A stretch of 42,458 bases of DNA from a virus: IMG/VR virus record IMGVR_UViG_3300025917_000330, positions 1-42,458 of that record. One strand, written 5' to 3'. The notes beneath the pieces were generated by a model. It was given only the letters and a program-made list of their open reading frames with translations, searched no databases and was not told the DNA's origin. This document shows, piece after piece, positions 4,655 through 41,812 of this stretch. Numbering within the stretch: position 1 is the first letter of the stretch; every line of letters begins with the position of its first letter. Made by a program: the position numbers and the translations under genes.

Positions 4655-6845
4655 CGCGCTTCGCCAAGAAGGGTATCAACTCCTTCACGATGGGATAGTC
4701 GAGCTCTCCAGGGTAGAGGCGAATGGCATCCGCGTGGACGTTCCACGATTGGTCAAGACAAAAGAGACCCTGAAAGTCATGATGAGGGATCTCAGGAATT
4801 CGATTGAAGCCGATGATATTTGGAAGGTGTGGCGCAAGCGATACGGTGAAAAGTCTAACCTTACCTCCAGAGATCAACTAGGAACCATCCTCCACAAGGA
4901 ACTAGGATATGAGGTGACCGATGAAACTGAGACCGGACGACCTGCCACCGATGAGGAAGCCCTCCAGAAGATCGATAATCCATTCGTCACGAAGCTCATT
5001 CGGTTTCTTAAATACGATAAGACTCTTGGTACGTTCGTTAAAGGAATCGAGAAAGAGACGATTGATGGTCGTCTTCATCCTGTTTTCAATCTTCACTTTG
5101 CTAGGACATATCGTTCTTGTGTTGCTAAGGGGACGATGGTGGAGATCATTCGCGACGTTTCTAGAGAACCTAAGGGCGTTCCTATTGAGGAGGTGAAGGC
5201 AGGAGATTATGCCTATTGCTATGATAACAATTTGAATCTCTGTCTCAGGAAGGTGGTGTGGGCAGGGAAGACTGGCCATCGAAAGGTTGTCAGGGTCCAT
5301 TGGAATGCACGAGGGAAGAGGGGATTCATTGACCTCACTCCAGAACATCTTGTCAGACTAGCTGACGGGAGATACACCCCTGCCCATTTCCTAAACAGAG
5401 ACTTTCGAAAGTTGACGGACCACCTTCGATCCCCTCGAGCCAGAGTCCTTGCAATGGGAAGAGATGGGGAATATATCTACCAAACAGGATGTCCACTGAA
5501 GATACTCGATCACAGATTCATCTATTCCCAACTCAAAGGGAATGTCTCAAAGAAAGAGGTTGTCCACCACAAAGATGGAAACCACTTGAATAATGGGAAC
5601 CTGAAAAATCTACAGAAGAAAACGAGGTCAAAGCACTCAAAGGATCATGCTTTGAATGGAGACTATTGGACTCTCGAGGATAGACAAAGAGGTGGGAGGA
5701 TTGGGAATTACAAAAGGTGGGGGAGGAAATGGATTCACAATCACAGGATCACCAAGGTAGAGGAAGTTGATGAGGAAGTTGATGTCTACGACATAGAAGT
5801 CGAAGAGTTCCACAATTTCATCGCCAATGAAATCTGTGTGCATAATTCAAGTGACTCACCTAATTTCCAAAACTTTCCGGTTCGTGACAAAGAGATGTCG
5901 GAGATAGTCCGCAGCCTGTTCATCGCATCCAAAGGTCACGTCCTAGTCGAGAATGACTTCAAAGGAGCCGAGGTTGTAGTGTCTGCGTGCTACCACAAAG
6001 ATCCGAATTTCATCTCCTACATCACCACCCCTGGGAAAGACATGCACAAGGACATGGCAGCCCAGATCTACATGCTCAAGCCTGAACAGGTTGACAAGGA
6101 TACTAGATACGGTGCTAAGAACAGATTCGTCTTCCCTCAGTTCTATGGGGACTTCTACGTAGCCTGCGCTCGCAATCTGTGGGAGTGGGTTCAGAAGAGC
6201 AAGCTAAAAGGACCGGACGGGAAGTCCCTCTACAAACATCTCCAGCGAAAAGGGATCAATGAGCTGGGTGACTGCAATCCTGAAGAGGAACCTCGCGACG
6301 GCACGTTTGAGAAACACCTGAAAGAAGTTGAGGATGACTTCTGGAATAATCGCTTTATGGCCTACGGCAAGTGGCGAAAGGATTGGTACCGCCGATATCT
6401 TGACAAGGGTTACTTCGACTTGCTGACAGGATTCAGAGTCCACGGGTCTTTCAATCGAAACTCGGCTGTGAACTATCCTGTCCAAGGAAGCGCCTTTCAC
6501 TGTCTTCTTTGGGCTCTGATACGTGTGAACAGGATGTTAGTAAGTCGCGGGATGAAGTCGATGGTGGTCGGTCAAATCCACGACAGTTTGATAGGCGACG
6601 TCGCTATCGACGAGCTCAAAGACTATCTCGAGATCGTGGAGAGAGTAGTCACCGTTGACTTGCCGAAAGCCTACCGGTGGCTCATCGTGCCGCTGGAGAT
6701 CGAATATGAAATCGCTCCAGAGAGAGGCAATTGGTTCCAGAAGAAAGAGACTAAGTTCAAGAAGGGAAAGTTTTTCCATCCAGACAACCCAAACCGGTTC
6801 ACGACTGATCCAGTCGCGTTCCTCAAAACACTAAACCACAAATGA
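4644..6845 (+). CDS. Family A DNA polymerase interrupted by an in-frame intein
   Basis: A 733-residue precursor. The exteins (1-158 and 402-733) form a 490-residue PolA palm/fingers/thumb without the N-terminal exonuclease, which is in the upstream gene. Motif A has D438 (NDFKGAE), motif B R488-K492-Y501-G502, and motif C H646-D647 (QIHDS). The conserved motif that usually reads as TGRLSS.DPNLQNIP is split: the N-extein ends ARTYRS and the C-extein resumes SSDSPNFQNFP. The intervening 243 residues have intein splicing motifs and an HNH nuclease (see separate entry). Motif A departs from the usual DYSQIE, which is common in divergent phage enzymes. It should replicate the phage genome with the clamp and clamp loader. 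Confidence 0.93.
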   Translation: MKIDALRQEGYQLLHDGIVELSRVEANGIRVDVPRLVKTKETLKVMMRDLRNSIEADDIWKVWRKRYGEKSNLTSRDQLGTILHKELGYEVTDETETGRPATDEEALQKIDNPFVTKLIRFLKYDKTLGTFVKGIEKETIDGRLHPVFNLHFARTYRSCVAKGTMVEIIRDVSREPKGVPIEEVKAGDYAYCYDNNLNLCLRKVVWAGKTGHRKVVRVHWNARGKRGFIDLTPEHLVRLADGRYTPAHFLNRDFRKLTDHLRSPRARVLAMGRDGEYIYQTGCPLKILDHRFIYSQLKGNVSKKEVVHHKDGNHLNNGNLKNLQKKTRSKHSKDHALNGDYWTLEDRQRGGRIGNYKRWGRKWIHNHRITKVEEVDEEVDVYDIEVEEFHNFIANEICVHNSSDSPNFQNFPVRDKEMSEIVRSLFIASKGHVLVENDFKGAEVVVSACYHKDPNFISYITTPGKDMHKDMAAQIYMLKPEQVDKDTRYGAKNRFVFPQFYGDFYVACARNLWEWVQKSKLKGPDGKSLYKHLQRKGINELGDCNPEEEPRDGTFEKHLKEVEDDFWNNRFMAYGKWRKDWYRRYLDKGYFDLLTGFRVHGSFNRNSAVNYPVQGSAFHCLLWALIRVNRMLVSRGMKSMVVGQIHDSLIGDVAIDELKDYLEIVERVVTVDLPKAYRWLIVPLEIEYEIAPERGNWFQKKETKFKKGKFFHPDNPNRFTTDPVAFLKTLNHK
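5118..5846 (+). mobile_element. HNH-containing intein in the DNA polymerase
   Basis: In-frame insertion of 243 codons (polymerase residues 159-401). It begins with Cys159 in block A (CVAKGTMVEI), has a block B TPEH at 232-235, a block F VYDIEVEEFHNF at 381-392, and ends with the penultimate His400 and terminal Asn401 (VHN), followed by Ser as the +1 nucleophile. A homing-endonuclease-like HNH motif (VHHKDGNHLNN) is at about 307-317. All residues needed for splicing are present, so it is probably active. It sits inside a conserved primer/template motif, typical of intein insertion sites. Confidence 0.93.
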
Positions 6846-8610: not shown

Positions 8611-8780
8611 TGAATGCTTTCACTATTTTGGCCCTTTTATTCGCAGGATTGATAATACTACCTATCACTGCCTACATGGTAGTGAAATTTGGTGCGGCCG
8701 GCTATTTTAGGGCGCGCCGCAGAGAACAGAACAGACAAAACACCGAGAAAGGAAACCTAAATGAGTCGTGCCAAAAGTGA
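8610..8780 (+). CDS. Small single-pass membrane protein (56 aa)
   Basis: The ATG at 8610 overlaps the previous stop (TAATG). The frame encodes 56 residues and ends at 8780, inside the next gene. Residues 4-25 form one clear hydrophobic segment (AFTILALLFAGLIILPITA), followed by a basic tail (RARRR near 34-38). The protein would insert in the inner membrane with the tail in the cytoplasm. It sits between recombination genes, so a membrane anchor for replication complexes or an unrelated small protein are both possible. Tight coupling and the strong hydrophobic segment argue that it is real. Confidence 0.62.
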   Translation: MNAFTILALLFAGLIILPITAYMVVKFGAAGYFRARRREQNRQNTEKGNLNESCQK

Positions 8781-10047
8781 AAAACGGCGATACACCAACG
8801 CCCGTGAGCAGGCGAATAAACAGTCGCTGGGCTTCGTGCCTGCTTACCTGAAACTGCCAAAGGGTGCCAGCCTATTCAAACCCAAAACAGGAGTCATGCT
8901 TCTGGACATCTTGCCCTTCGAAGCGGGCAAGGGCAATCCAAACGCAGATGAAGGGATGCTCCACTGGGAGAGAACTTTCAGTGCCCATCGCGGAATCGGA
9001 GCCAACAGTGACAGTTTCCTCTGCCCGCGGCTGCTAAACAAGAAGCCTTGCCCCGTCTGCGAGCACCGGCTCCACTTGGTGAAAGCAGGGGACGAGGATG
9101 ACGAGGATCTCATCAAGGATCTCGCGCCGAAGACGCGTCAGCTGTTCAACGTCCTCAACTTGAAGGACCCAGACAAGGGAGTGCAGATTTGGGATATGTC
9201 CTACTTCCTGTTCGGCGAGTCGCTTTACAAGCGGCTGCGAGATGCCGACGAAGGGGACGAGTGGGAGAACTTCTTCTTCCTGGAGGGCGGGTTGACATTG
9301 AAGATCGGATTCAGTGAACGGTCTTTCGGTGGCGCATCCTTCCACGAGGTAGACACCATCGACTTCAAACCCCGCAAGCGGGATTACGATGACGACATCC
9401 TGGAACAGGTTCACGTCCTGGACGACCTCCTTGTCATTCCTGATTACGATGAGCTCAAGGAGACCTTCCTCGAGACCACCGGCGATGACGATGACGATGA
9501 TGAACCCAAGGCTAAAAAGCGTCACAGCGACGACGATGATGATGACGATGACGAACCAAAAGCCAAGCGCCGCAGTCTACCTGCTGATGACGATGATGAT
9601 GATGACGATGACGACGATGAGCCCAAGGCGAAAAAGCGCCATGTCGAGGAAGACGATGATGACGAACCGCCGAAGAAAAAAGCAGCCAGGAACGGCGACG
9701 ATGACGACGATGACGAGCCGCCCAAGGCCAAGAAAAAGACCCCAACCGACGATGACGACGATTGGGATGACGTAGACGGCGATGATGATGACGAGCCCAA
9801 GGCTAAAAAGAAAGCCAAGGACGACGATGACGACGATTCGGACGATGACGATGACGAACCGAAAGGTAAGAAGTCCAAATCGGACGATGACGACGATGAC
9901 GATGACGATGATGAGCCGCCCAAGAAAAAGAAGAACATGTTCGCCAAGCAGAAGGGCGACAAGGGCTGGGAAAAGGACGATGACGATGATGAACCCAAAG
10001 CAAAGAAAAAGGTCGCCGCGTCGGACGATGATGATGACGATGACTGA
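8761..10047 (+). CDS. gp32-like ssDNA-binding protein with giant Asp/Lys repeat tail
   Basis: A 428-residue protein. Residues 1-240 look like a divergent T4 gp32-type ssDNA-binding domain: basic N-terminus, a zinc-knuckle-like CPRLLNKKPCPVCEH, and a fold rich in aromatics (WDMSYFLFG, ENFFFLEGG). From about residue 241 to the end the protein is a low-complexity tail of roughly nine units of 4-11 Asp followed by EP(K/P)xKK. SSBs normally end in one short acidic tail that recruits partners. A ribosome-binding site (AAAGGAAA) precedes the ATG at 8761. Its stop overlaps the recombinase start (TGATG). The family call rests on the zinc motif, acidic tail and position. Confidence 0.75.
   Translation: MSRAKSEKRRYTNAREQANKQSLGFVPAYLKLPKGASLFKPKTGVMLLDILPFEAGKGNPNADEGMLHWERTFSAHRGIGANSDSFLCPRLLNKKPCPVCEHRLHLVKAGDEDDEDLIKDLAPKTRQLFNVLNLKDPDKGVQIWDMSYFLFGESLYKRLRDADEGDEWENFFFLEGGLTLKIGFSERSFGGASFHEVDTIDFKPRKRDYDDDILEQVHVLDDLLVIPDYDELKETFLETTGDDDDDDEPKAKKRHSDDDDDDDDEPKAKRRSLPADDDDDDDDDDDEPKAKKRHVEEDDDDEPPKKKAARNGDDDDDDEPPKAKKKTPTDDDDDWDDVDGDDDDEPKAKKKAKDDDDDDSDDDDDEPKGKKSKSDDDDDDDDDDEPPKKKKNMFAKQKGDKGWEKDDDDDEPKAKKKVAASDDDDDDD
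9480..10045 (+). repeat. GAY-rich coding microsatellite (Asp-run/EPKAKK repeats)
   Basis: About 560 bases made of GAC/GAT codon runs broken by GAACC(C/A)AAGGC(T/C)AA(A/G)AA-like units, encoding D(4-11)-EP(K/P)xKK repeated about nine times. GAC and GAT codons alternate irregularly, so the DNA is not a perfect repeat. The antisense strand of the same region gives long Ser/Ile/Val or Arg/His frames that are artefacts of composition. Confidence 0.9.
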
Positions 10048-13503: not shown

Positions 13504-13862
13504 AAATGAAATCCCTAGGGAAGAAGGTCACCAAATTTCAAGGATTCGATACCTTCCCAACTCCTCTTGGAGTCAATAAAGTCACTTGCATCTCCGATGA
13601 GGTGACAGCCGTCTGCCCGGTGACAGGACAGCCAGACTGGTATGTAGTCAAGATCGAATACCTTCCTCAAAAACTCTGCGTTGAATCCAAATCACTGAAA
13701 TTGTTCTTGCAGAGCTTTCGCAACGATGGTCATTTCTGCGAAGCTTTCGCCAGCATCATTGCCCACAAACTCGAGAAGGCCCTCACACCATTCAACGTCA
13801 AAGTCACCGTCGAACAAAAACCCCGTGGCGGCGTCGCCATCGAAGCTATCTGCGCTCTATGA
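13500..13862 (+). CDS. queF: QueF-like 7-cyano-7-deazaguanine reductase with altered active site
   Basis: A 120-residue unimodular QueF. It carries the nucleophile C39 in VCPVTGQPD, D46, and the NADPH motif ESKSLKLF at 62-69, all at spacing matching the Bacillus enzyme (C55, D62). QueF reduces preQ0 to preQ1. At the place of the catalytic His-Glu pair (41 residues after the Cys) this protein has C80-E81 instead of H-E. It overlaps the nuclease and queC genes by ATGA, so it is part of the operon. The product probably feeds a 7-deazaguanine DNA modification rather than host tRNA, but no transglycosylase is visible here. Confidence 0.87.
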   Translation: MKMKSLGKKVTKFQGFDTFPTPLGVNKVTCISDEVTAVCPVTGQPDWYVVKIEYLPQKLCVESKSLKLFLQSFRNDGHFCEAFASIIAHKLEKALTPFNVKVTVEQKPRGGVAIEAICAL

Positions 13863-14545
13863 AAAACGTCTTAGTCCTCACCTCGGGTGGAATTGATTCC
13901 ACTACCCTCCTCTACTACCACGCCAAAAGGAAACAACTCGCCGGCGCCATTGCATTCAACTATGGGCAGCGACATCTGAAAGAATTGGAGTTTGCAGGGT
14001 TGAACGCTCAGGCTCTCGGCGTCCCAATCACCACTGTGAATATTTCATCCTTGGGACCAATCCTGTCTGGCAGCTCGCAAACAGATGCCAGTGTGCCCGT
14101 GCCGGAGGGTCACTATTCTGAAGAGTCGATGAAGGCCACGGTGGTGCCCAACCGAAACATGATCCTGCTGTCCATCGCGATTGGCGCGGCGATCGCGAAG
14201 AAGATAGACTTCGTCGCCTACGCTGCCCACGCAGGAGATCACGCCATCTACCCTGACTGCCGACCCGAGTTCACCAAAGCGATGGGATCCGCTGCTCGAC
14301 TTTGTGATTGGAGAAAGATCACTTTGTTAAGACCATTCATCAAGATGACCAAAGGATGGATCGTCGCCGAAGGGGAAGAACTGGGAGTTGACTTTACGAA
14401 GACATGGTCGTGCTACCAAGGTGGGGCACTGCACTGTGGCCGCTGCGGCACTTGCGTTGAGCGCCGACTTGCGTTCATCGAAGCGAAGGTAGTTGACCCT
14501 ACCACCTACCAGGATCCAGACTTCGCTCTGCAATACCAGAAGTGA
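13859..14545 (+). CDS. queC: QueC 7-cyano-7-deazaguanine synthase
   Basis: A 228-residue PP-loop ATPase of full length. The ATP loop is SGGIDST at 9-15, and the zinc site is C185, C193, C196, C199. It converts carboxy-deazaguanine to preQ0 with ATP and ammonia. QueC and QueF adjacent in a phage operon indicate 7-deazaguanine synthesis for genome modification, which is known to protect phage DNA from restriction. QueD, QueE, FolE and DpdA are not in the window; they may lie outside it or come from the host. Confidence 0.94.
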   Translation: MKNVLVLTSGGIDSTTLLYYHAKRKQLAGAIAFNYGQRHLKELEFAGLNAQALGVPITTVNISSLGPILSGSSQTDASVPVPEGHYSEESMKATVVPNRNMILLSIAIGAAIAKKIDFVAYAAHAGDHAIYPDCRPEFTKAMGSAARLCDWRKITLLRPFIKMTKGWIVAEGEELGVDFTKTWSCYQGGALHCGRCGTCVERRLAFIEAKVVDPTTYQDPDFALQYQK

Positions 14546-20302: not shown

Positions 20303-20671
20303 CTATGACGAGATGACACTTCCAGCGGCATACGTGCCGAGCTTGACTCCAATCGGGAGGGTCGCTGTGCTCGGTGACCCAACGGCGGTCGCATCATACA
20401 CTTCTCCTATCACGGGCTTCACCGTCCCTCCCTTGAGGTAATCTGAGACAGTCGTGATTGTGACGACTTGTCCAGTGCCTTGTTTGTTCTCCAGTGCCCA
20501 CTGATCCTTCGCACCCTCGATGATCCGAAGGTTGTTGAAGATTGAGTTGAGCTGAGCATTTTCACGAGCCTTCACGAAGTTTGGAATTGCTATCGCGGCG
20601 AGCAGGCCGATGATGGCGACAACGATCATGATTTCTACGAGGGTGAATCCGGCAGTGTGTTTTGTTTTCAT
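20303..20671 (-). CDS. Type IV prepilin / pseudopilin-like protein
   Basis: A 122-residue protein with a perfect class III signal: a short basic leader MKTKHTAG, cleavage before F9, E13 as the mature +5 Glu, and the hydrophobic helix TLVEIMIVVAIIGLLAAIAIP. The following NFVKARENAQ and KDQWALENKQ segments match pseudopilins I remember from Verrucomicrobiota and Lentisphaerota. It lies six bases after the Tat lectin gene, inside the tail operon. It needs host prepilin peptidase. Possible roles are joining host pili, blocking them or mimicking a receptor. Highly unusual for a phage tail cluster. Confidence 0.93.
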   Translation of the reverse strand: MKTKHTAGFTLVEIMIVVAIIGLLAAIAIPNFVKARENAQLNSIFNNLRIIEGAKDQWALENKQGTGQVVTITTVSDYLKGGTVKPVIGEVYDATAVGSPSTATLPIGVKLGTYAAGSVISS

Positions 20672-20676
20672 AGGTT

Positions 20677-21498
20677 TTAATAGACAGCATATTTCGTGTT
20701 CAGGTAGTTCTCAATAGAAGTTCTTTCAGTATCATCAACGGCCCGGTTGTAAACGAGGCAAGCGCCAAAGTCGATATTCAACGGAGTGTAGGCGTTGCCG
20801 AGATTAGTAGCAACCGGCCAGCCACTCGCATAACCCGTGTTGGATAAGGATGGAGAAGTCCCATTCTGCCGGAAGGTCGTGGTGCTATACGTCATGTCAC
20901 TGGATCGAATAATGGTCACAAGTTTGGTGCCTATCGTGATCGTTGTATTCGTATCACGAGCCTGACCCACTCCCACATATTGCATGTGAGTCCAATACTT
21001 TCCAGAGCTGACATTATTATCAATCTCCCCATAGATGAAAGGGGTTCCCGATCCAGGCTGCCAAGTGATAGGACCTGAGTAAGCGTCACCCCCCGGCCAC
21101 GTGATCGCATTCCACACCATCGCTAGTGTGAGAGCCGAGATTCCTGTCCCGGTGAAATCCAACTGGTCATTGCTTCCGTCGAATCGCACGGATGCCTGTG
21201 ATCCGAAAATCCCGGTCTTGAACAAGGGTCTCTTCGATGAATCAGATTGAGTTGCATCCCGTGAACTTCCGCTCGTGTCCGGCCATGTAGCGACTGCATC
21301 ACCGTCGTTCAGACCTACAATGTTGTCGCTCTCCCACCGAGCAATAAGACCTGAAGTGACAGTAAGGGCGTCGCCAGAAGCGACGACTGTGTGCCGAGCG
21401 AGCGGACCTGGGATGATTGTCGTCGCAGCATGAACGAGCGCGGCAGATGGGACGTAAATCAGCCCAGTCTTGATGAACTTGCGCCTAGATAGTTTCAT
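20677..21498 (-). CDS. Tat-signal lectin-like (LamG/ConA) protein
   Basis: A 273-residue protein. The first 25 residues are a complete twin-arginine signal, SRRKFIKTG with a hydrophobic stretch ending in a VHA-A cleavage site. Residues about 45-273 form a concanavalin/LamG-like domain, starting LIARWESD and ending YLNTKYAVY. The same domain is fused to a tail adaptor at 25673 (RRPLFK.GIFG, FDG.DDxxDFT are shared). Tat export of a folded lectin suggests a periplasmic or surface protein binding glycans, not a virion part. It overlaps the upstream gene by ATGA. Confidence 0.84.
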   Translation of the reverse strand: MKLSRRKFIKTGLIYVPSAALVHAATTIIPGPLARHTVVASGDALTVTSGLIARWESDNIVGLNDGDAVATWPDTSGSSRDATQSDSSKRPLFKTGIFGSQASVRFDGSNDQLDFTGTGISALTLAMVWNAITWPGGDAYSGPITWQPGSGTPFIYGEIDNNVSSGKYWTHMQYVGVGQARDTNTTITIGTKLVTIIRSSDMTYSTTTFRQNGTSPSLSNTGYASGWPVATNLGNAYTPLNIDFGACLVYNRAVDDTERTSIENYLNTKYAVY

Positions 21499-22532: not shown

Positions 22533-22909
22533 AGGAAGAATAGATGGTAGTGAAGGACGTAGGTGGTTGCATCTGTCATGCCGGTTAGAGCAAAGTCGAA
22601 ACCATCCGTGGTGGGAGCGCCGATGATTGCCGCTGCTATGACTCCCCCTCCCACTGGGCTCTGGACAGTCAGCAAGACAGAGGTGGGAGCATCGTCAAGG
22701 TCAAGTCCTTCAACAGATCCATCGCTCACTCCATTCCCAAGAGCGAGAGTCCCGTGAACCCCTGTCGCCGTGTCAATGAAAGTCGCTAAGTCCGCGAGCG
22801 ACATTCTGAAGTCGTCACCTATATCGTAAGGCGACCTTGTCAGATACAATTCGTCGGTGGCTAAGCCCGGCGCACCATTATCCATTTCATGAATGTTTTT
22901 ACCCGCCAT
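22529..22909 (-). CDS. Tail fibre/adaptor N-terminal-like protein
   Basis: A 126-residue protein. The N-terminus (HEMDNGAPGLATDELYLTRSP, then FRMSLADLATFID) resembles the start of many phage fibre or baseplate attachment proteins. The C-terminus is beta-rich (GGGVIAAAIIG, YVLHYHLFF). An AGGAG site precedes the ATG. It overlaps the upstream adaptor by 11 bases. It probably attaches a fibre to the tail. Function inferred from motif and position. Confidence 0.6.
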   Translation of the reverse strand: MAGKNIHEMDNGAPGLATDELYLTRSPYDIGDDFRMSLADLATFIDTATGVHGTLALGNGVSDGSVEGLDLDDAPTSVLLTVQSPVGGGVIAAAIIGAPTTDGFDFALTGMTDATTYVLHYHLFFL

Positions 22910-23339
22910 AGGTTACTCCTGATTGAAGGATGTTACCGTCATCCCCCGCCAATAGAATTGGCTCGTTAGATTCACCTGATAGAGCAAGGAAAGTATGAAG
23001 ATCTGTCACGATCTGAAGAGATCCTTTTACCGTCACAACCCCATCCAAATGGGCAGTGGAATACCTTGCTTCCATGAAGGCCACCACCTTGTCCTCTCCG
23101 TAGAGTGTGATGATAAAAGTCTCCGACCCGTTGCTAAGAGTGTCATCAAAGAACGATTTGAAAGTAACGAACTGATCAACCCTGAAGACCCATTCAACAT
23201 CACTCACCAAAAAAGGATTGGTGTAGAAACGGCGCTTGCGAATCCGCCCGCTTTCCATTTCTGTCTGCCCACCCCTTGGGGATGTTTCCACTTGAGAACT
23301 CATCATCGGCAGCGGCAAGGATGATGGCCAATTGTTCAT
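22899..23339 (-). CDS. Tail adaptor protein, paralogue of the 25673 gene N-domain
   Basis: A 146-residue protein. Its first 110 residues align with residues 5-125 of the gene at 25673: NNWPSSLPLP vs NTWPTSLPLP, a RIRKRRFYTN vs AIVRRSRFTR block, and SFFDDTLSNG vs DFFQDDLGNG. This is a minor tail protein family seen next to tape-measure genes. Here the C-terminus is short, ending LAGDDGNILQSG. The duplication flanks the kinase and lipoprotein genes. Likely a structural adaptor at the tail end. Confidence 0.7.
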   Translation of the reverse strand: MNNWPSSLPLPMMSSQVETSPRGGQTEMESGRIRKRRFYTNPFLVSDVEWVFRVDQFVTFKSFFDDTLSNGSETFIITLYGEDKVVAFMEARYSTAHLDGVVTVKGSLQIVTDLHTFLALSGESNEPILLAGDDGNILQSGVTYGG

Positions 23340-23380: not shown

Positions 23381-24484
23381 TCATCTGATAGTAAAGTAAG
23401 CTGAAAAGATAGAACCTTTCACCTCGGCTGGGACCACATCTACAAAACCCCCAAAGTGATGAACTATATTCCGCACAGCCGCCAATCCCATTCCTGTCCC
23501 TTTGTCCGGAGACTTGGTGGTGAAGAAGGGTTGGAAGATGTTTTTCAAGACATCTGGATGGATGCCGCTTCCATCGTCCTCAACACTGATCCTGCAAAAT
23601 CTTCCTGATACGGGGCCTCCGTTCACCGTAGGTTTGTGGTTCGTGAGATTCACATCTTCCCCTTTTAGGATGATGGTCTTGGCTCCTGCATCCCTCGCGT
23701 TCACACAGAAGTTCAAGATCACCTGGCGAATCCCCACAGGGTCAATAGCGAAGACGGCTCCCGTTGTCACTTCAGATTTAATCATAACCCCTGGTATCAT
23801 CCTGGGCAAATCTTGAAGGAATTCTAGGATAACCACCTTCACCGAGACATCGTCCCGGAAGCCATTCCTTCCTGAGACGAAACGCATCATCCTGTTCACC
23901 ATCTCTACAATCCTATCGGCCGACCGCTGAGCCGACTTCAAAAGGGCCATCCTGTTTGCTGGAGTGTATTCCTCAGAAAGATGAAGAACTCCCATTATGG
24001 GAGTGAGCATGTTCCTCATGTCATGCGCGATTCCAGTGGCCACTTCACCTACCAGTTTCTGACGCTGAACCTCTAGCACCTTTCTCTGAGCCTCAAGAAT
24101 TGTTTCGTGGGCTTCAACGAGCTTCCTCTCCCGCTCCCTGTCCCTCAAGGCTTTGCGAATGGCCCACGCTAGACGATGAGGCCTGTCTTTGAGCAGAACG
24201 TCATCAACCTGCTCTAACTCCAAACTAGGGATCATCGAATCATCAATCGTCCCAGAAAGAATCAGGACGGGGATATTGGGCCACTGTTTTCGAACCATCG
24301 TGGTCGCATGAACCCCACCCCAGCCTGGAATGTTGTAATCTAGGATGACGAGGTCAAACCTTTCAACGATAGCCTTCTCAAACTCTGCCTTCGTCTTGAC
24401 GTCAATCAATTCGACATTCTCTGGAAGGTAATGCCGAGTCAGGATGATGTCATTCTCGGAGTCTTCCAGTATCAGAATTCTCAT
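23381..24484 (-). CDS. Receiver-histidine kinase hybrid (two-component)
   Basis: A 367-residue signalling protein. Residues 1-115 are a REC receiver domain with E7/D8, the phospho-acceptor D49 (VILDY), T79 and K99. A coiled segment (115-145) leads to a HisKA H-box with H154 (GIAHDMRNML). The HATPase_c domain has an N-box at N258/N262 (LNFCVNARDAG), G1 DDGSGI at 303-308 and FTTKSPDKGTGMGL. All catalytic residues are present, so it should autophosphorylate. It starts with an ATGA overlap to the holin-like gene and lies inside the tail operon. It has no transmembrane segment, so it is cytosolic. Confidence 0.92.
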   Translation of the reverse strand: MRILILEDSENDIILTRHYLPENVELIDVKTKAEFEKAIVERFDLVILDYNIPGWGGVHATTMVRKQWPNIPVLILSGTIDDSMIPSLELEQVDDVLLKDRPHRLAWAIRKALRDRERERKLVEAHETILEAQRKVLEVQRQKLVGEVATGIAHDMRNMLTPIMGVLHLSEEYTPANRMALLKSAQRSADRIVEMVNRMMRFVSGRNGFRDDVSVKVVILEFLQDLPRMIPGVMIKSEVTTGAVFAIDPVGIRQVILNFCVNARDAGAKTIILKGEDVNLTNHKPTVNGGPVSGRFCRISVEDDGSGIHPDVLKNIFQPFFTTKSPDKGTGMGLAAVRNIVHHFGGFVDVVPAEVKGSIFSAYFTIR

Positions 24485-24840
24485 GTCTCGTCAGTGGGTT
24501 TTGGTTTTTGGATGAACTGAAGAGGATCACCTGGAACATGGGGATGGATGTGGACATCATCGTCAGGAGTCAGTTCGCGCTTGATAGAAGGCAAGGGAGA
24601 TTGTTTCAGATAGAGAATAGCACCTCCCATTCCGCTCCCAAGGAACACAAGCCCCATCTGTTTGATATCTAGCAGCTCAGTTCCCATCCCCATCGCGTAA
24701 CCAAGCCCCAGTCCCCCCTGTGTCGTTCCTACCGTCATTCCACCTGAAATGAAGGCACCAACCAATCCATGAGCCCAGCGAGCTGTTCGGCGCTTCACCA
24801 CCTTGCGCCAAAACATCGTTGTCTCGCTGGGCTTGGCCAT
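24481..24840 (-). CDS. Holin-like membrane protein
   Basis: A 119-residue protein with two hydrophobic glycine-rich segments: about 24-50 (LVGAFISGGMTVGTTQ, GLGLGYAMG) and 62-79 (MGLVFLGSGMGGAILYL), the second ending in a KQSPLP motif I remember in siphophage holin-like proteins. The C-terminal tail is soluble and Pro/Asp-rich. Holins make pores at lysis. It precedes the kinase and follows a gap. Holin identity is inferred from topology, not proven. Confidence 0.6.
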   Translation of the reverse strand: MAKPSETTMFWRKVVKRRTARWAHGLVGAFISGGMTVGTTQGGLGLGYAMGMGTELLDIKQMGLVFLGSGMGGAILYLKQSPLPSIKRELTPDDDVHIHPHVPGDPLQFIQKPKPTDET

Positions 24841-24982: not shown

Positions 24983-25180
24983 TCAACTTGGCTCGATCTT
25001 CCACTCCGGCCCGGCAAAAGCAGTTCCACCTGGTCGGAGGGAGGCGATGCGATCGTCCCTCGCTGCCTGTTCTTCAATGCTGATCTCCCCCGTCTTCACC
25101 ATCTCCTGAAGGAGAGGACCAAGACCCTCGAGTAGATCGAGAGCCCCATCAATTGCTGTCAATACGGTTTGAGCTTTCAT
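24983..25180 (-). CDS. Hypothetical 65-aa protein
   Basis: A 65-residue protein that overlaps the lipoprotein stop by ATGA. The N-terminal half is an amphipathic helix (TAIDGALDLLEGLGPLLQEMV); the C-terminal half is charged, ending GPEWKIEPS. No signal peptide and no known family. It sits between the lipoprotein and the holin-like gene, so a lysis or envelope role is possible but unsupported by motifs. Confidence 0.55.
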   Translation of the reverse strand: MKAQTVLTAIDGALDLLEGLGPLLQEMVKTGEISIEEQAARDDRIASLRPGGTAFAGPEWKIEPS

Positions 25181-25602
25181 GGTTTTGGAGTCACTGCGGG
25201 TGGTATGTTCATTTCTCGACTGGCTAAGTAACCAGTCGCCTCACGGACAGCCTGACGGATTGTATCGAGCGCCTTCTGAAAGGCCGTCCGATTTTCCTCA
25301 GTTGGATTTGCTTTGTAGGCATCCCTGAGTTTGATGGCGCTGGCGATCCATTCAGGGGCTCCTGCCCTAACCCTGTCAGCAGCCTTCTTGATCTCCGGTG
25401 TCTCCTTCAAGACCGCCCGGTTCTCGTATTCCCATTTGACGAACCGATGCATCACTTCATACCCCGTTGTGATGGCTAGATCAGCGTCATAGAGGAATTT
25501 GTCTCCTTGATAAACCCCTTGGGGGGCCAACGTGCCACAACCATTGGTGCATCCACCAATGAGAGCGACTGATAACATCAGCAATATGATTGACTTTTTC
25601 AT
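25177..25602 (-). CDS. Phage lipoprotein (141 aa)
   Basis: A 141-residue protein with a lipoprotein signal, MKKSIILLMLSVALIGGC, the lipobox Cys being C18. The mature part is mostly helical and charged (KAADRVRAGAPEWI, TAFQKALDTIRQAV) and contains no enzyme motif. It would be anchored in the envelope. It lies in the accessory stretch next to the holin-like gene; an outer-membrane spanin subunit or a superinfection-exclusion lipoprotein are possible. Neither can be confirmed. Confidence 0.72.
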   Translation of the reverse strand: MKKSIILLMLSVALIGGCTNGCGTLAPQGVYQGDKFLYDADLAITTGYEVMHRFVKWEYENRAVLKETPEIKKAADRVRAGAPEWIASAIKLRDAYKANPTEENRTAFQKALDTIRQAVREATGYLASREMNIPPAVTPKP

Positions 25603-25672: not shown

Positions 25673-26740
25673 TTAGTAAATTGAATATCTTGAATTCAAT
25701 TGATTCGTCACAACCTCCACCTCATCGTCCGTGAGTGCGTAGTCATAAACCTTGATGTCCGCGATGTAGCAATGAATGTAATCTTGACCACGACCGATAC
25801 GAGCTACGGATGGAAAACCTGTAAAACCATTCAACGTGTAGATAGCAGGAGCGGTTCCATTCATCGCCCACGCATGAGCACTGGTAAGGTTGTTCCAACG
25901 GTGCATGTGAATGGCCTTCTCAGAAGGGAAGGGAGTGCTGTAAAGTCCATGACTATACTTAGAAACGATCTCAGCATCGGAGGCATTAGTCACAATAAGG
26001 TCGGCGCTCCAAGCAGAAGGGTTTCCCACTCCATCCATGAAGATGAACCCTGCACCATTCCCACGCCAGGAAAGAGGACAGCTGAATTCTTTGTAGGTCA
26101 GGATCTGCCAGACGATGAACATCGTCCAGCTAGGAATCGACGAAGCCGTGAAATCCATGAAGTCATCGACACCATCAAACATGACAGCAGGCTCGGTTCC
26201 GAAGATGCCCTCCTTGAAGAGAGGTCTCCTAGCAGACTCTATTTGAACAGCCGAGCGCGAGTATCCGCTAATGTCCGGCCAGACACTGAACTGAGCATTG
26301 TCTGCCACCCCTGTGATTGAACTAGCTTCCCAGCTCGCCACCAGCCCTGGAGTCACCGCCGAAGAGGGGACAGTCTCAATCAGTTCAAGACCAGCCTTTA
26401 CATGGAAGATGCCTTCATCATACTCCCGCTGATAGCCTCCCTCAAACCTGACAGTCCACTCTGACAATATCGAGGTCTCAGGGTATCTCAATTCGATCTT
26501 GAACTGGCCAGTCCCATTGCCGAGATCGTCTTGGAAGAAGTCTACGAAGGTCTGCATCTGAACAGCCGAGAAGCACCAGGCCACTGATAGTGTAGTATAG
26601 GACCGGGTAAAGCGAGATCGACGGACGATCGCAGCATTCTCAGTGGGACTCGTGAGGGTTGCATTCCTAGGCCTCCCTGAGAACTCTACTTTCGGCAACG
26701 GCAGGCTTGTCGGCCAGGTATTGTCAACTTGGAGGATCAT
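25673..26740 (-). CDS. Tail adaptor fused to a LamG/lectin domain
   Basis: A 355-residue two-domain protein. Residues 1-125 are the minor tail adaptor shared with the gene at 22899. Residues about 128-355 form a LamG/ConA-like domain shared with the Tat protein at 20677 (LVASWEASSITG start, RRPLFKEGIFG, MFDGVDDFMDFT, LNSRYSIY end). The fusion would place a glycan-binding domain on the tail tip. It follows the tape-measure gene with an ATGA overlap. The lectin call is from pattern; ligand unknown. Confidence 0.76.
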   Translation of the reverse strand: MILQVDNTWPTSLPLPKVEFSGRPRNATLTSPTENAAIVRRSRFTRSYTTLSVAWCFSAVQMQTFVDFFQDDLGNGTGQFKIELRYPETSILSEWTVRFEGGYQREYDEGIFHVKAGLELIETVPSSAVTPGLVASWEASSITGVADNAQFSVWPDISGYSRSAVQIESARRPLFKEGIFGTEPAVMFDGVDDFMDFTASSIPSWTMFIVWQILTYKEFSCPLSWRGNGAGFIFMDGVGNPSAWSADLIVTNASDAEIVSKYSHGLYSTPFPSEKAIHMHRWNNLTSAHAWAMNGTAPAIYTLNGFTGFPSVARIGRGQDYIHCYIADIKVYDYALTDDEVEVVTNQLNSRYSIY

Positions 26741-36674: not shown

Positions 36675-37079
36675 TCAATTCCCTTGTTGCATCTTCTGAG
36701 TAGATTCTTTCAGAGATGCATTCGGGTCAATTCCCTTGAAGGGCCTCAGAACAATAGCTGAAGAGATTAGTTTCAAAGCAACCTCACCTGGCTTCGCGGA
36801 GGCAATTATTTCATCTACCTCCGAAATCGTCATCCGCTCGCTTAGAGCACCAGAAATGATCTTGAGCGACTCACCAATGAGCTGGTATTGCTGACAGAGC
36901 AGGGTGTATTGGGCGACAAGATCGATGTAACCACAATCCATTTGCTTTGCGAGCTCCTCAATCTCGGCCCATCTCCTCTCCACCTCGCTGACAGAAATTC
37001 CCAGCTTGTGAGCGATATTGTGATTGGGCAGGCCTGCTGTCTTGTATTTCACCAAGAGCTTCTCATCGTCTATTTTCAT
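36675..37079 (-). CDS. HTH-containing protein, possible small terminase
   Basis: A 134-residue protein. I chose ATG 37079 because it overlaps the upstream stop by ATGA; an upstream start at 37193 would lie inside that gene. The N-terminus carries a helix-turn-helix (LLVKYKTAG, HNIAHKLGISVSEVERRW), followed by helices. The size and HTH fit a small terminase that recognises DNA ends, but terL is far away and no oligomerisation motif is clear, so a regulator is equally possible. Confidence 0.5.
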   Translation of the reverse strand: MKIDDEKLLVKYKTAGLPNHNIAHKLGISVSEVERRWAEIEELAKQMDCGYIDLVAQYTLLCQQYQLIGESLKIISGALSERMTISEVDEIIASAKPGEVALKLISSAIVLRPFKGIDPNASLKESTQKMQQGN

Positions 37080-37882
37080 TTTCTGTGATCCAAAATGTAA
37101 TTGAGTAGAACCTGCCGATTGTGATTCATCTGTGTCCCTTGGTTTACGGGATGCCAATGATGCAACAGACAGAGCCAGGAGGATCTCATCCACAGCTCTT
37201 TCGCTTTAGGACGACTTATTTCATCACGGCATCGACTCGTCACGTTCTTGAAAGTAATCTCACCTGGTAGGGGATCTGTCCTCCTCTGATTCTTCTCCAG
37301 CATATAAATCTGTTGATAGTCCTCCCACCCATAACCCCTGAATCTTTCATCACAGCCTCCCAGATCCAGATACTCCTGCCTCCTGCAAATGAAATTTGTC
37401 GCAGCGGGATTGATGTAGGGAATAGCAGAGTAGGTCTTTCGATTCTCCATGATCCAGGCATAGGCAGGCGCGTCCAGAGGGATCTTCAACAGTTTGGAAT
37501 AGATCCTATTCAGATAGATCATCCCTCCGTTATACCACACAGTGGGAACGGTATAGCGCAAATGATCGAGAAGCGTTTCAAAGTAATAGCAATTCGGAAA
37601 GCAGTCCACGTCCAGCTTCATGATCCATTCAGTCGTGGCATCACGAGCTCCTTGGTTGTGGTAGTAGCCGATGGAGTGTTCATTCTTCTTCCAAGCAACA
37701 GATGAGAAAGCTTCAACATTAGGTGGGGCTTCGTCCTTGAACCAAGGTGGAGGAAGTTCATCAATGAAGTAAATGAGATGTTGAACCTGAATGTCAGACA
37801 CTCCTCTGAGATTCTTCAACCACAGCCGAAGCATGTCAGGACGATCCCAATATGGAGTGATGGTGGTTAGGAGGGGTTCCAT
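37076..37882 (-). CDS. GT-A glycosyltransferase (GT2/GT7C-like)
   Basis: A 268-residue glycosyltransferase with a TTITPYWDRPDML start (GT2-like), a DVD metal site at 91-93, and GGCDERFRGYGWEDYQ at 175-190, the C-terminal acceptor/base motif of GT7C-type enzymes. It transfers a sugar from a nucleotide donor. It ends the glycan cluster next to the HTH gene, and overlaps the 2OG oxygenase by 16 bases. Confidence 0.82.
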   Translation of the reverse strand: MEPLLTTITPYWDRPDMLRLWLKNLRGVSDIQVQHLIYFIDELPPPWFKDEAPPNVEAFSSVAWKKNEHSIGYYHNQGARDATTEWIMKLDVDCFPNCYYFETLLDHLRYTVPTVWYNGGMIYLNRIYSKLLKIPLDAPAYAWIMENRKTYSAIPYINPAATNFICRRQEYLDLGGCDERFRGYGWEDYQQIYMLEKNQRRTDPLPGEITFKNVTSRCRDEISRPKAKELWMRSSWLCLLHHWHPVNQGTQMNHNRQVLLNYILDHRK

Positions 37883-38505
37883 CGGGAGTAGTATTCACCT
37901 TCTTTGAATTTCGTCTTGAGAGTCATCGAGACAGACTCATCTGGCCGATAGCACGCGGCTGGGAGAATCCTGAAATCCATACTCACTCTAGCCTTTCCCG
38001 TGGTATTGACCCTATTCCCATGAGTGAGCTTATTCCCATTGAATTCAACCAGTTGACCCACCCTCAGCGCCATCGGCTGAAAACCTCCCTTCCCTATGTC
38101 TGACTCCACCCACACACTGGCGTCTCCGTCTGAGTTGGTGAGAGGAATGATGTAATTCATCTCACCCTCTGGGTGGCCGAACTGGGCGTCATTGTGGAAG
38201 GCTCCTACAGCCAGGTTGTTTCTCAGGTGGACTCTGAAGGTTGGGAATTTCTGGTAGAGGAAAGAAGGACTCATCAGAGGGGCCATCACCCCACTAATGA
38301 ATCTTTCATAGAGAATCACCATCTCAGGCCACCCAGCATGGTATCTGTCGTAGAACTTTCGATGGAAAGAGGTCTTGGAGTCTGCACCCACCTTGAAGAG
38401 CTCCATGTGTTCTTCATGAAGATCCTCCAGGTAAATAACACCCATCAAATCTGCGATAGGGGTCACAAAGTCATAACGATTGATGTCGTATTTGATGTAT
38501 CTCAT
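37867..38505 (-). CDS. StrG-like 2-oxoglutarate/Fe(II) oxygenase
   Basis: About 212 residues from ATG 38505, which overlaps the FkbM stop by ATGA (38514 is an alternative). The core has H107-x-D109 (AFHNDAQFGH), a distal H165 (NKLTHGN) and R176 (counted from the 38514 start), the His-Asp-His-Arg set of Fe(II)/2OG dioxygenases. IIPLTNSDGDASVWVES and GGFQPM.L..GQL.EFNG match the streptomycin-cluster StrG family. It may hydroxylate or oxidise a sugar or a glycan precursor made by its neighbours. Confidence 0.83.
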   Translation of the reverse strand: MRYIKYDINRYDFVTPIADLMGVIYLEDLHEEHMELFKVGADSKTSFHRKFYDRYHAGWPEMVILYERFISGVMAPLMSPSFLYQKFPTFRVHLRNNLAVGAFHNDAQFGHPEGEMNYIIPLTNSDGDASVWVESDIGKGGFQPMALRVGQLVEFNGNKLTHGNRVNTTGKARVSMDFRILPAACYRPDESVSMTLKTKFKEGEYYSRWNPS

Positions 38506-39146
38506 AAAGGACATTTCTGGCGGCGGATGTAGAGTTTGTCACCCCACCCGTGCTTCGTCATCTTCGTTTCGGCTCCCAAGAAATCAAACCGTAGAAGGAA
38601 ATCATCAATGTCTCTCACAAACGGACACCCTTTGTAAAGTTCCTTCGTATTCACCTCAACGTAGGCGTAGTCAAAAAGCCATAGCCAGTCTCCCATGCCT
38701 CTCAAAGCGAGCAACTCAGCCCCTTGGAGATCTACATTCAGGAACCAACCTCCTCCAATCTCTATCCCGCGGTCAAACAGGAAGGTGTCCACCCGACTCG
38801 TCAACATCCTGATTTCTTCACAGAAGACTGTCCCTGGGTGCTCTTGAAGATGAGTCCCAAACTCGAGGAACGACGAACTCTGCGATTCGTTGTTGGCGCG
38901 CCTGAACACGACCACCTCTCCATCCCTATCGCTAAGACAGGCCTGGAACGCAAGGTGTCCTGGATATTTCGCAACGTTATTGTAGAGCTGAATATGAATG
39001 TCTGGCAACGCCTCAAACCAAATCACCTGCTTGATCCCTAGCTTGTCGTAGGTAGCAGCCTCCTGCCCCGTGTTAGCACCCAGGTGAAGAACCCCCTTGG
39101 CTTTGATCTTGTGCCGGGCGAAGAGTTGGTCAAATGGTATTAGCAT
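38502..39146 (-). CDS. FkbM-family SAM methyltransferase
   Basis: A 214-residue FkbM-type methyltransferase from ATG 39146 (MLIPFDQLFARH); an upstream in-frame ATG at 39206 would overlap the previous gene more. It has the SAM-binding GVLHLGANTGQE, IWFEALPDIH (acid after beta-2), and FLNVDLQGAELLALRGM, the FkbM hallmark. It O-methylates sugars or polyketides. It overlaps the sugar methyltransferase by 17 bases. Confidence 0.87.
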   Translation of the reverse strand: MLIPFDQLFARHKIKAKGVLHLGANTGQEAATYDKLGIKQVIWFEALPDIHIQLYNNVAKYPGHLAFQACLSDRDGEVVVFRRANNESQSSSFLEFGTHLQEHPGTVFCEEIRMLTSRVDTFLFDRGIEIGGGWFLNVDLQGAELLALRGMGDWLWLFDYAYVEVNTKELYKGCPFVRDIDDFLLRFDFLGAETKMTKHGWGDKLYIRRQKCPL

Positions 39147-39870
39147 AGCCGTGCATGTAGCAATTATCCCACGTTCCTGGGAGATCGTTTGGAAAGACTT
39201 CCTCACATCTGATCATTCCCAACGTGGGTCCTTTGAAATTCCAAACATGGAACCCATAGATGCTCTTCTGCAATACCCGCGCAGAGTAATGAGCTTTGCC
39301 TTCATCATTCAATTCAGAAAGGCTGCTATGGCTGAGGGAGAGATCATAACTGTCTGGTTCATAGTCACCAAGAGTAGGCCAAATGCCATCCCATCCCATC
39401 AGCCGGATGTATCGCCGTTGTAGCATTGAAGGTTCCAATAGATCGAAAAAGGTATAGTTCGTTACAAGACCGAATAGTTTCAGGCAATGAGCAAGATTCC
39501 CATACCCAGGTCCAATCTCAGCAATTCTGAAAGGACCAATCCCAAAAAGACGGATGATCTGGGAGCAGACCAAAACTGAGGACGCCGTTGTCCCAGATAG
39601 CTTGTGACCATGAATATTAGCCACATCAACGTCCCACGGACCTCCAACGCGATCTGCCTCTGCTAATGCGGGAAGAAGATCGAGGCACCTTGGATAAAGA
39701 CGCATCGCCATTGACCAGTAACGAGGAACATGATCTGCATGTCTATTCTCGGTGACGTATCCCAACGTCCTCATCTGTTTGAATTTGTAAAACAATTCAT
39801 CTGACGTGGCTGCTTTCAGACAGTCAAAAAGCCAGTCACGTTTGATGTCTTCTGGAATCATCCAGTTCAT
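39130..39870 (-). CDS. Putative sugar O-methyltransferase
   Basis: A 246-residue protein with a SAM loop IAEIGPGYGNLAHCL at about 115-129, then a FFDLLEPSMLQ strand, and an N-terminal helical domain with HVPRYWSM. This fits the putative sugar O-methyltransferase family (TIGR04371-like). It overlaps the next glycosyltransferase by ATGA. It likely modifies the glycan built by the adjacent transferases. Confidence 0.76.
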   Translation of the reverse strand: MNWMIPEDIKRDWLFDCLKAATSDELFYKFKQMRTLGYVTENRHADHVPRYWSMAMRLYPRCLDLLPALAEADRVGGPWDVDVANIHGHKLSGTTASSVLVCSQIIRLFGIGPFRIAEIGPGYGNLAHCLKLFGLVTNYTFFDLLEPSMLQRRYIRLMGWDGIWPTLGDYEPDSYDLSLSHSSLSELNDEGKAHYSARVLQKSIYGFHVWNFKGPTLGMIRCEEVFPNDLPGTWDNCYMHGYANTI

Positions 39871-40535
39871 TTCACAACCTGGTCAACGTAGAGTGGGAGG
39901 AAATAAGCCCGCTGCTCCCAGGTTGCCGGGCCGGCCATGTGGAGTGTGGGCATACCTGGAACCCACTGAGTTCCATCTGTCCAAATCTCAGGACAAAAAC
40001 AACCAATCTCATCTGCCTTGCAACCGCGGACGCCAGCGTAGGAAGTCTCTCTGATGATCTCATCAAAATACCACTGCTCCCATGGATGGTGAGTGATTAT
40101 GACACGCTGGTTGGGACGGACACAAGGAGAACCTATCTCACACCTTTCCCTCCATTCGGTGACGAACTTCCTCGCTGCTTTGGTATTCCGCCAGACCGTC
40201 AGTCCGGCGCAGAGATACTTCCAGGCATGCCAGTTCCCTTGCTGATATGCGGCCATGAAAATGCCAGGGAGGTCTGCAAGATCTCCGATGTCTACCTTAT
40301 GATTCATGAACAAGACATCAGCATCGGCCCAGATGATCCGATCCCACCCCTCATTCATCAAACGGTCAATCTCGTAGACCTTCGAGAAGCTGGGGTGGAG
40401 ATCTTTCCAGTGCCTCTCGGTGATGACTTCGTGGGCGTAGTCTTTCGCTGCGGCAAAGTTCTTTTGGTTCTGAATGAAACCGCCACAGTAAGGAGCAATC
40501 TCCGGCGTAGCAATGGTTATGATTTTTCTCCTCAT
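39867..40535 (-). CDS. Glycosyltransferase with DAD site (GT8/GT34-like)
   Basis: A 222-residue protein from ATG 40535 (MRRKIITIATPE), overlapping the upstream stop by ATGA. The DAD metal-binding motif is at 71-73 (IIWADADVLF), after a SKVYEIDRLM helix, as in nucleotide-sugar GT-A enzymes of the GT8 or GMA12/MNN10 type. A second region PWEQWYFDEII and a Cys-rich GCKADEIGCFCP segment follow. The sugar is unknown. Confidence 0.74.
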   Translation of the reverse strand: MRRKIITIATPEIAPYCGGFIQNQKNFAAAKDYAHEVITERHWKDLHPSFSKVYEIDRLMNEGWDRIIWADADVLFMNHKVDIGDLADLPGIFMAAYQQGNWHAWKYLCAGLTVWRNTKAARKFVTEWRERCEIGSPCVRPNQRVIITHHPWEQWYFDEIIRETSYAGVRGCKADEIGCFCPEIWTDGTQWVPGMPTLHMAGPATWEQRAYFLPLYVDQVVK

Positions 40536-41080
40536 GGCTTCATAACCCACCAGCTGGGCCAGTCCTTCTCTCCTGTTGTCCTGAGCATAAATCTATTCAA
40601 AGAAACAAATTCATCCACTGCGGTTTTCACTCCGTAATTCACCCCGGCATATTCACCAGCCAAGTAATCATGACCGGCAAGAATCCCACCCGGCTTGACC
40701 TTGGGCCACCACAGTCGGATATCTTCGCGGGTGGACTCCAGTGTGTGATTAGCGTCGATGTAAACGAAATCAAGATCTTGGTCTCGAAAATGAAGGACCG
40801 CATCCGATGAGATCTTCCTTATCAACTGGGCGCGACCTTGATACCTCTCAGAAACCTTCAGGACCCTTTGGTATCGAGCCTCCTGATCATGGTCACCATG
40901 CACGCTATAACCTGGGGCATCTTGCACCGCCCAAGGATCAATCAAGTAACACGTCCCAGGCCAGTGGTCGAGAAGGTAGAAGCTGAAATAGCCTTCAGCC
41001 ACGCCCACCTCCGCAGCATACCCCGTCAGCCCCAGTTTGCAGAGCAGTGATGCAAATTCAGTCCTCGTATTGACTTTCAT
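40532..41080 (-). CDS. Class I SAM-dependent methyltransferase
   Basis: A 182-residue methyltransferase of the Methyltransf_24 type. The SAM loop is AAEVGVAEGYFSFYLLD at 22-38, the adenine acid is in YLIDPWAV, and LDFVYIDANHTLE matches the family motif before PGGILAGHDY. It acts on small molecules or sugars. It starts three bases after the neighbouring gene. Confidence 0.85.
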   Translation of the reverse strand: MKVNTRTEFASLLCKLGLTGYAAEVGVAEGYFSFYLLDHWPGTCYLIDPWAVQDAPGYSVHGDHDQEARYQRVLKVSERYQGRAQLIRKISSDAVLHFRDQDLDFVYIDANHTLESTREDIRLWWPKVKPGGILAGHDYLAGEYAGVNYGVKTAVDEFVSLNRFMLRTTGEKDWPSWWVMKP

Positions 41081-41083
41081 AGG

Positions 41084-41812
41084 TTACCATCCTCTCTCAA
41101 CCAACTTAGTGGGAATCTCTCTTTCCCAAGCCTTTTCACCTGTCCATTCTGGAATCGTCCCTACCCAGGGCACAGTATGGCCCGTCTCTATGTAGGCCTG
41201 CTTGGAACCGCCGCGCAAGCTGATCCGGCCCGGCAACGGGCGGTTATACCAATAGAACGGTTTGAATCTTTTCTCGTCAATCCCAACTGAACGGATTCCT
41301 AAACTTCGCATTCGCCTATCAAACTCCTGGTCATCCCCGGCATACTCCGGCCGGTAACCTCCTACCTTCTCAATCAGACTCCGGCGGTAGGCCCAACACC
41401 CATGATAAGCGAAACGGCCGCTCTTGCGGTTGAACGTCTCACTTTGGACCCATGCACCCTTCACGAAGTCAATGGCTATCCTAGGCTGAACAAACTCATT
41501 GCGACTGAGAGCATCGGCAAGAGACTCTAACCACCACGGCATGTAGATATCATCGTCATCGGCTTTCGCAATGGCATCGCTATCAAAAGAGGCGAGGGCC
41601 ATCACCGCATTGTTCTTCTCACCCAGCGAGCGAAACCGGCGTGGAACTGAGATGAGCTCCCAGCGATCACCCTTCTGGTTTGAATACTGTCCACCATCAT
41701 CAAGGATTATCAGTTCCCTGTTCTGATAGGTCTGGTGCTCAAAACACTTGATCAGCCTCGGAAGAAGGTCCGGCCGATTGAGGGTAGGGCAGAAGGCGGT
41801 GATTTTCATCAT
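41084..41812 (-). CDS. GT2 family glycosyltransferase
   Basis: A 242-residue GT2 enzyme from ATG 41812 (MMKITAF), overlapping the upstream stop by ATGA. Motifs: TAFCPTLNRPDLL start, ELIILDDGG, an acidic DDDD at 85-88 (IAKADDDD), and an acceptor region YAGDDQEFDRRMRSLG. It is a GT-A inverting transferase. It adds a sugar to the glycan or a lipid carrier. Confidence 0.86.
   Translation of the reverse strand: MMKITAFCPTLNRPDLLPRLIKCFEHQTYQNRELIILDDGGQYSNQKGDRWELISVPRRFRSLGEKNNAVMALASFDSDAIAKADDDDIYMPWWLESLADALSRNEFVQPRIAIDFVKGAWVQSETFNRKSGRFAYHGCWAYRRSLIEKVGGYRPEYAGDDQEFDRRMRSLGIRSVGIDEKRFKPFYWYNRPLPGRISLRGGSKQAYIETGHTVPWVGTIPEWTGEKAWEREIPTKLVERGW

Follow-up and report, generated by a model that had tools for sequence, protein, structure and literature searches.

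Why should a tailed phage carry a complete histidine kinase among its tail genes, and with which partners could such a protein communicate? The question is raised by a minus-strand gene of the window, by which we mean the whole analysed stretch of 42,458 nucleotides (IMG/VR virus record IMGVR_UViG_3300025917_000330). The window is thus an entire 42-kb IMG/VR record, and it is assigned to the linear class. Its tailed-phage content is evident from PHROG matches to terminase, tape measure and central tail protein J; Pfam matches comprise DNA polymerase A, UDG and a 5'-3' exonuclease. The kinase gene belongs to a co-directional gene run that extends from 42453 down to 15632 and includes the tail genes. 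The original prediction placed it in a late operon. The tail genes and the common direction are indeed there, and it is from this gene content that we infer the late status itself.

Domains and catalytic residues

The gene and the domains of its product are arranged as follows.

23381..24484, minus strand: REC-histidine kinase of 367 aa, ATG start; homologues in related phage records L105 (57% identity), L106, L107/L108/L111 and L231
24173..24478, minus strand: N-terminal receiver domain (REC), residues 3-104, phospho-acceptor D49 (Pfam PF00072, 5.6e-10)
24050..24172, minus strand: signalling helix, residues 105-145 (helix in the AlphaFold2 model; D49-to-H154 spacing as in LvrB)
23864..24049, minus strand: HisKA/DHp domain, residues 146-207, phospho-acceptor H154 in HDMRN (Pfam PF00512, 4.5e-9)
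23393..23743, minus strand: HATPase_c domain, residues 248-364, with N, G1 and G2 boxes (Pfam PF02518, 1.7e-17)

The matches to Response_reg, HisKA and HATPase_c all lie above the Pfam gathering cut-offs. The receiver possesses the acidic pocket (E7/D8), D49, S77 and K99 of a canonical receiver, and the HisKA domain has the H154-D155-M-R-N158 box, in which H154, D155 and N158 are invariant in 20 sequences. The HATPase_c boxes are present as N258 and N262, DDGSGI (D303, G305, G307) and GTGMGL (G329-L334). Across the phage homologues N258, N262, D303, G329, G331 and G333 are invariant; substitutions in the glycine boxes are conservative and leave the catalytic positions unchanged. The claim that the gene encodes a full receiver-kinase with all its catalytic residues (D49, H154, N258/N262, DDGSGI and GTGMGL) is therefore borne out by both the Pfam matches and the residue check.

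The original prediction also regarded the domain order as inverted, with the receiver first and no sensor. The receiver is N-terminal and a sensor domain is lacking: the architecture is REC-DHp-CA, with REC as the sole input domain. The order is nevertheless not exotic, because Rec-controlled kinases of the LvrB type have been described as frequent in bacteria (PMC13269768).

Resemblance to LvrB and the signalling helix

LvrB of Leptospira (PDB 8vc9, 9qqw, 9qr2) is the best solved relative of the window protein both by sequence (E 1.6e-27 over residues 3-349) and by fold (6.6e-26). It has been described as the prototype of Rec-controlled histidine kinases (PMC13269768). Phosphorylation of its receiver brings the alphaS helices together in a coiled coil and sets the catalytic domain free; the phosphate then passes to a downstream receiver protein (PMC13269768). 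The alphaS lengths of Rec-controlled kinases are reported to be multiples of seven (PMC13269768).

The window protein shares with LvrB the full-length REC-alphaS-DHp-CA order, the catalytic motifs, the absence of any other sensor and the spacing of the phospho-acceptors, the Asp and the His being 105 residues apart in the window protein, its L105 homologue and LvrB alike. The spacing drops to 91 in the REC-HK-REC phages, among them L107, and in L231; this difference of exactly two heptads agrees with the heptad rule described for the class. The AlphaFold2 model of the window protein (mean pLDDT 86.5) contains one unbroken helix, residues 102-173, which joins REC alpha5 to DHp helix 1 with block pLDDT of 67-91; at a pTM of 0.48, the relative placement of domains is not fixed by the model. 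This helix and the spacings of 105, 105, 91 and 91 agree with an alphaS element, for which coiled-coil propensity was checked crudely.

The two kinases also differ. They are about 24% identical, and the window kinase is phage-encoded, with neither an upstream nor a downstream partner gene in the record. The inverse Y-T switch and the knee of LvrB are absent: in their alignment, compared by eye, Y87, Y103 and E150 of LvrB are replaced by I80, V96 and K143, and the switch residues S84 and T86 are retained as S77 and T79. Switch and knee are details of LvrB and not an established requirement for every family member. Because Y87, Y103 and E150 are not kept, regulation of the window kinase may differ in detail from that of LvrB, the switch perhaps being tuned otherwise.

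We assign a probability of roughly 0.6 to the reading that the window protein is a catalytically complete, soluble, Rec-controlled histidine kinase of the LvrB type with predicted enzyme activity, this value applying jointly with the origin and the mechanism proposed below.

A fixed slot for receiver-based proteins

The window protein, used as a single sequence in a pattern scan of viral_contigs, retrieved no relatives, and a first protein search among terminase relatives was empty; both missed the relatives either because of low identity or because these were absent from the records then searched. The phage lineage was gathered by means of conserved tail and capsid genes and then searched with Pfam models. 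The homologous REC-HK proteins in phages that the original prediction recommended to look for were found in this way, and they share a common genomic surrounding. In the window it consists of the following genes.

25673..26740, minus strand: tail-operon gene, upstream boundary of the slot, beside the tape-measure gene in nearly all slot-spanning records
25177..25602, minus strand: putative lipoprotein of 141 aa, conserved cassette partner (71% identity in L107)
24983..25180, minus strand: protein of 65 aa, conserved cassette partner (65% identical homologue in L107)
24481..24840, minus strand: glycine-rich putative membrane protein of 119 aa ("holin-like"), overlapping the kinase gene by ATGA
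22899..23339, minus strand: tail-operon gene, downstream boundary of the slot, conserved in place (PHROG 384 virion structural protein, 2.3e-12)

The lipoprotein is about 25-31% identical in L105, L111, L113, G003, G007 and G013, and genes of 60-70 aa similar to the small partner adjoin the lipoprotein gene in other relatives of the window.

The 57% identical REC-HK of L105 has the conserved lipoprotein and small-protein genes on one side and the 22899-23339 homologue on the other; L106, from another sample, harbors an identical partial copy. L107, L108 and L111 encode a 496-aa REC-HK-REC protein (27-30% identity to the window protein by BLAST) between homologues of the 25673 and 22899 genes. 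Three further lineages (G003, G007, G008, L155) have a stand-alone receiver in the slot. Exactly one REC gene is present in each of G003, G007 and G008; L241, more than 99% identical to G003 at nucleotide level, goes with the G003 and G007 receivers. The receiver of L155 (18856-19284, plus strand) has a degenerate acidic pocket (PF00072 27 bits, VpsR 24 bits) and is possibly a pseudo-receiver. L110 and L113 possess a receiver-less cassette, and the slot is without any insert in L112, L129, L138 and L164. An alpha/beta-hydrolase-like gene occupies the slot instead at L127:3052-3738, L195:7781-8482 and L120:6988-7716 (Hydrolase_4 5.5e-4 in L127).

Every receiver match in 124 related records (2.89 Mb) falls in the slot, where about seven distinct lineages have a receiver protein. 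We calculated the probability of such an outcome under uniform placement but do not treat it as a p-value, since the records were selected by genes near the slot. L231 is a phage with mostly different tail proteins; it encodes a REC-HK-REC protein (35% identity) between the tape-measure gene and NlpC/J-like genes.

The kinase genes evolve under purifying selection: dN/dS between L107 and L111 is 0.09 at a dS of 1.6, and for the window and L105 pN is 0.27 against a saturated pS of 0.75. As judged from sequence, this selection and the other contigs with the gene at the same junctions rule out a chance open reading frame. With its cellular homologues, its position outside the phage core and its occurrence in several phage genomes, the gene has the properties of an auxiliary (host-derived) phage gene.

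Other signalling proteins of phages

Histidine kinases were said to be very rare in phages, and this holds: no tblastn match in 50,697 phage records covered 80% of the query, and BFVD contains only a handful of phage kinases. Matches from the INPHARED protein search were rejected as phage kinases, for they mainly look like bacterial contigs filed as phages.

Several phage systems invite comparison. Pelagiphages of the HTVC023P type likewise carry a histidine kinase at a conserved position in the phage lineage; theirs lies within a curli (type VIII) secretion cluster, whereas no such genes are seen here (PMC9599517). In Alteromonas phage V22, CDS-30 is a histidine kinase/response regulator listed as an auxiliary gene (PMC7289586), but the V22 protein in BFVD has 149 aa and is not a full REC-HK. 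The single-domain response regulator of Microcoleus phage My-WqHQDG (WOL31351.1) shares 35% identity with the G003 slot receiver, yet it is found among replication genes rather than tail genes. The cREC proteins of jumbo phages also have a receiver-like fold; they have been described as never occurring with histidine kinases (PMC7824862), while the window domain is a canonical receiver fused to one. Host two-component systems are inhibited or tuned by small early phage proteins such as PIT4 (PMC10714779).

An exact-phrase literature search for phage-encoded kinases or regulators found no paper. Already known are Rec-controlled kinases as such and phage kinases in pelagiphages, in Alteromonas phage V22 and in a few metagenomic phages of BFVD. 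What is new is one fixed phage locus that repeatedly houses receiver-based proteins of varied architecture, including a complete kinase of the LvrB type.

Origin and host

Two clades, each with 100% bootstrap, are formed by the kinases of the window and L105 and by those of L107 and L111. A single origin of the phage kinases is neither shown nor rejected (support of 45/60 for four of them, p-AU 0.44 for five). In the kinase-core tree the nearest bacterial cores are mostly from Verrucomicrobiota, and the N-terminal receivers cluster with receivers of Opitutaceae hybrid kinases. The latter (L047, L060), whose kinase cores are among the nearest as well, are 886-893 aa in length; they have an extended middle region and a receiver at the C terminus, both of which the window protein lacks. 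Among the C-terminal receivers of the phage proteins, the pair from L107 and L111 falls in another part of the tree, and the one from L231 is next to a receiver of Opitutus; the stand-alone receivers form no firm grouping with the kinase receivers.

The tail operon also encodes a type IV pilin-like protein with an N_methyl motif (20303-20671, minus strand). It is about 50% identical to Verrucomicrobiota pilins and 73% identical to its copy at L107:16159-16536, and it matches 186 of the 195 Verrucomicrobiota genomes (best 2.6e-28). In a control of 50 genomes, the best matches outside Verrucomicrobiota were in Lentisphaerae (3e-16) and Omnitrophota (3e-12), the rest being 3.5e-9 or weaker. Such a phage-borne pilin is unusual, and it may act at the cell surface.

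Because the pilin matches are far stronger there than in the control genomes, the host of the window phage is probably a member of Verrucomicrobiota. The evidence is indirect, as no prophage was found when 388 Verrucomicrobiota genomes were searched by way of the capsid. The connection to Verrucomicrobiota made in the original prediction thus gains independent, though indirect, support from the kinase-core and receiver trees, the pilin matches and the 50-genome control. The kinase was probably acquired from a Verrucomicrobiota-like host.

Possible mechanism and its alternatives

The 42-kb record contains no receiver domain besides the kinase's own, and there is no partner with an output domain. 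Because the phage record has no output protein, host proteins are the most likely partners of the kinase, in agreement with the earlier proposal that it could feed a host regulator. That these soil-type phages retain bacterial two-component proteins at one fixed place in a signalling/lysis-like cassette of the tail operon suggests that they tap the phosphate-signalling network of the host during infection.

In the model that we favor, the kinase would be produced together with the tail proteins, presumably late. D49 in its receiver would be phosphorylated by a host kinase. The receiver dimer would then rearrange, and the alphaS helix, continuous with DHp helix 1, would make or break a coiled coil. 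The catalytic domain released in this way would phosphorylate H154, and the phosphate would pass to a host response regulator or phosphorelay, shifting host physiology in the late phase of infection. In the other state, the HDxxN motif might dephosphorylate the host regulator. If the model is true, phages can join a bacterial phosphorelay as nodes in the late stage of infection. The series of REC, REC-HK and REC-HK-REC proteins at one locus, with its heptad spacers, is a ready set to test the LvrB switch model, and it is equally suited to ask what a phage gains from a signalling protein. A more daring version, in which a dedicated locus reads the state of the host phosphorelay and sets lysis or the end of the cycle, with REC, REC-HK and REC-HK-REC interchangeable at one site, is conceivable but rather unlikely.

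The receiver-only relatives imply that kinase activity is dispensable in some members of the phage group. Among the slot variants, be they REC-HK, REC-HK-REC or REC alone, no domain other than the receiver is shared by all, and this common denominator keeps alive the idea that the receiver itself is the active part, a decoy or phosphate sink that drains a host kinase, the kinase half only setting or resetting it. However, the kinase half retains all catalytic residues under purifying selection, which a pure sink would not need; moreover, the grouping of stand-alone receivers with those of the kinases is not firm, and in L155 the acidic pocket is partly lost. We consider a sink unlikely.

The original prediction suggested that the protein could time lysis or host physiology through a host response regulator. 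The kinase and the small membrane protein might then constitute a phosphorylation-controlled holin or antiholin switch. The predicted ATGA overlap is real (4 bases, 24481-24484) and recurs in L105, again with an upstream membrane gene; the receiver genes of G003, G008 and L155 directly adjoin membrane genes, and a membrane protein of G008 shows a very weak holin match (0.014). The label "holin-like" is a weak one, though: the 24481-24840 protein has no Pfam match above cut-off (a sub-threshold one to Imm17 alone), no PHROG match and no 19-residue window with mean hydropathy above 1.3, so the label came from appearance alone. Nor is this neighbour conserved. L105 has a different TM protein at its position, with no detectable homology between the two, and in L107 and L111 the kinase is preceded by a conserved, soluble-looking protein of 62-63 aa, the REC-HK-REC phages having no membrane gene there. 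A family search of the slot recognised neither holin nor endolysin, and its membrane and lipoprotein neighbours are putative. A direct role of the kinase in lysis timing is thus not supported beyond gene adjacency, and we regard such a switch as quite unlikely.

The slot could also be a general cargo site and the kinase a swappable passenger, whose effect on host fitness is unlinked to tail or lysis genes. In favor of such a site, L127 and L120 have the hydrolase-like gene there and G003 has a beta-helix protein. Against this, receivers occur in the slot in about seven lineages and at no other place in the 2.9 Mb, a concentration beyond that expected of random cargo, and even in the rather different phage L231 the kinase lies at the equivalent point of the tail operon; we find the cargo reading improbable.

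Host contamination or a misassembled junction, the latter named by the original prediction as its possible undoing, to which the bacterial origin of the kinase fold might point, is rejected with near certainty, given the same gene and junctions in contigs of other samples (L105, L106; L107, L108; L111), the 4-base overlap with the upstream gene and a GC content of 0.495 at the level of the adjoining genes.

Further features of the record

The DNA polymerase A gene (4644-6845, plus strand) contains an in-frame intein with an HNH endonuclease at roughly residues 159-400 (Intein_splicing 2.4e-10, HNH_3 7e-6). The intein looks recently gained, because the related phages tested are all without it, including G001 with its 92% identical C-terminal part of the polymerase. 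QueC of the 7-deazaguanine pathway (13859-14545, plus strand, 4e-55) lies among replication-type genes and makes DNA modification possible. The protein encoded at 8761-10047 (plus strand) has an extremely Asp-rich, repetitive C-terminal half, in which D runs alternate with PKAKK spacers; it may be a single-strand-binding protein whose acidic tail has expanded.

In the tail operon, the protein encoded at 20677-21498 (minus strand) is variable among relatives and carries a Tat-like signal (SRRKFIK) and a LamG-like part; it has no Pfam match, and the LamG-like part resembles the C-terminal half of the 25673-26740 product. Adjoining the head genes, a block at 37076-42453 (minus strand) comprises glycosyltransferase-like, FkbM methyltransferase (3e-11) and other sugar-modifying-type genes, and it is largely syntenic in G008.
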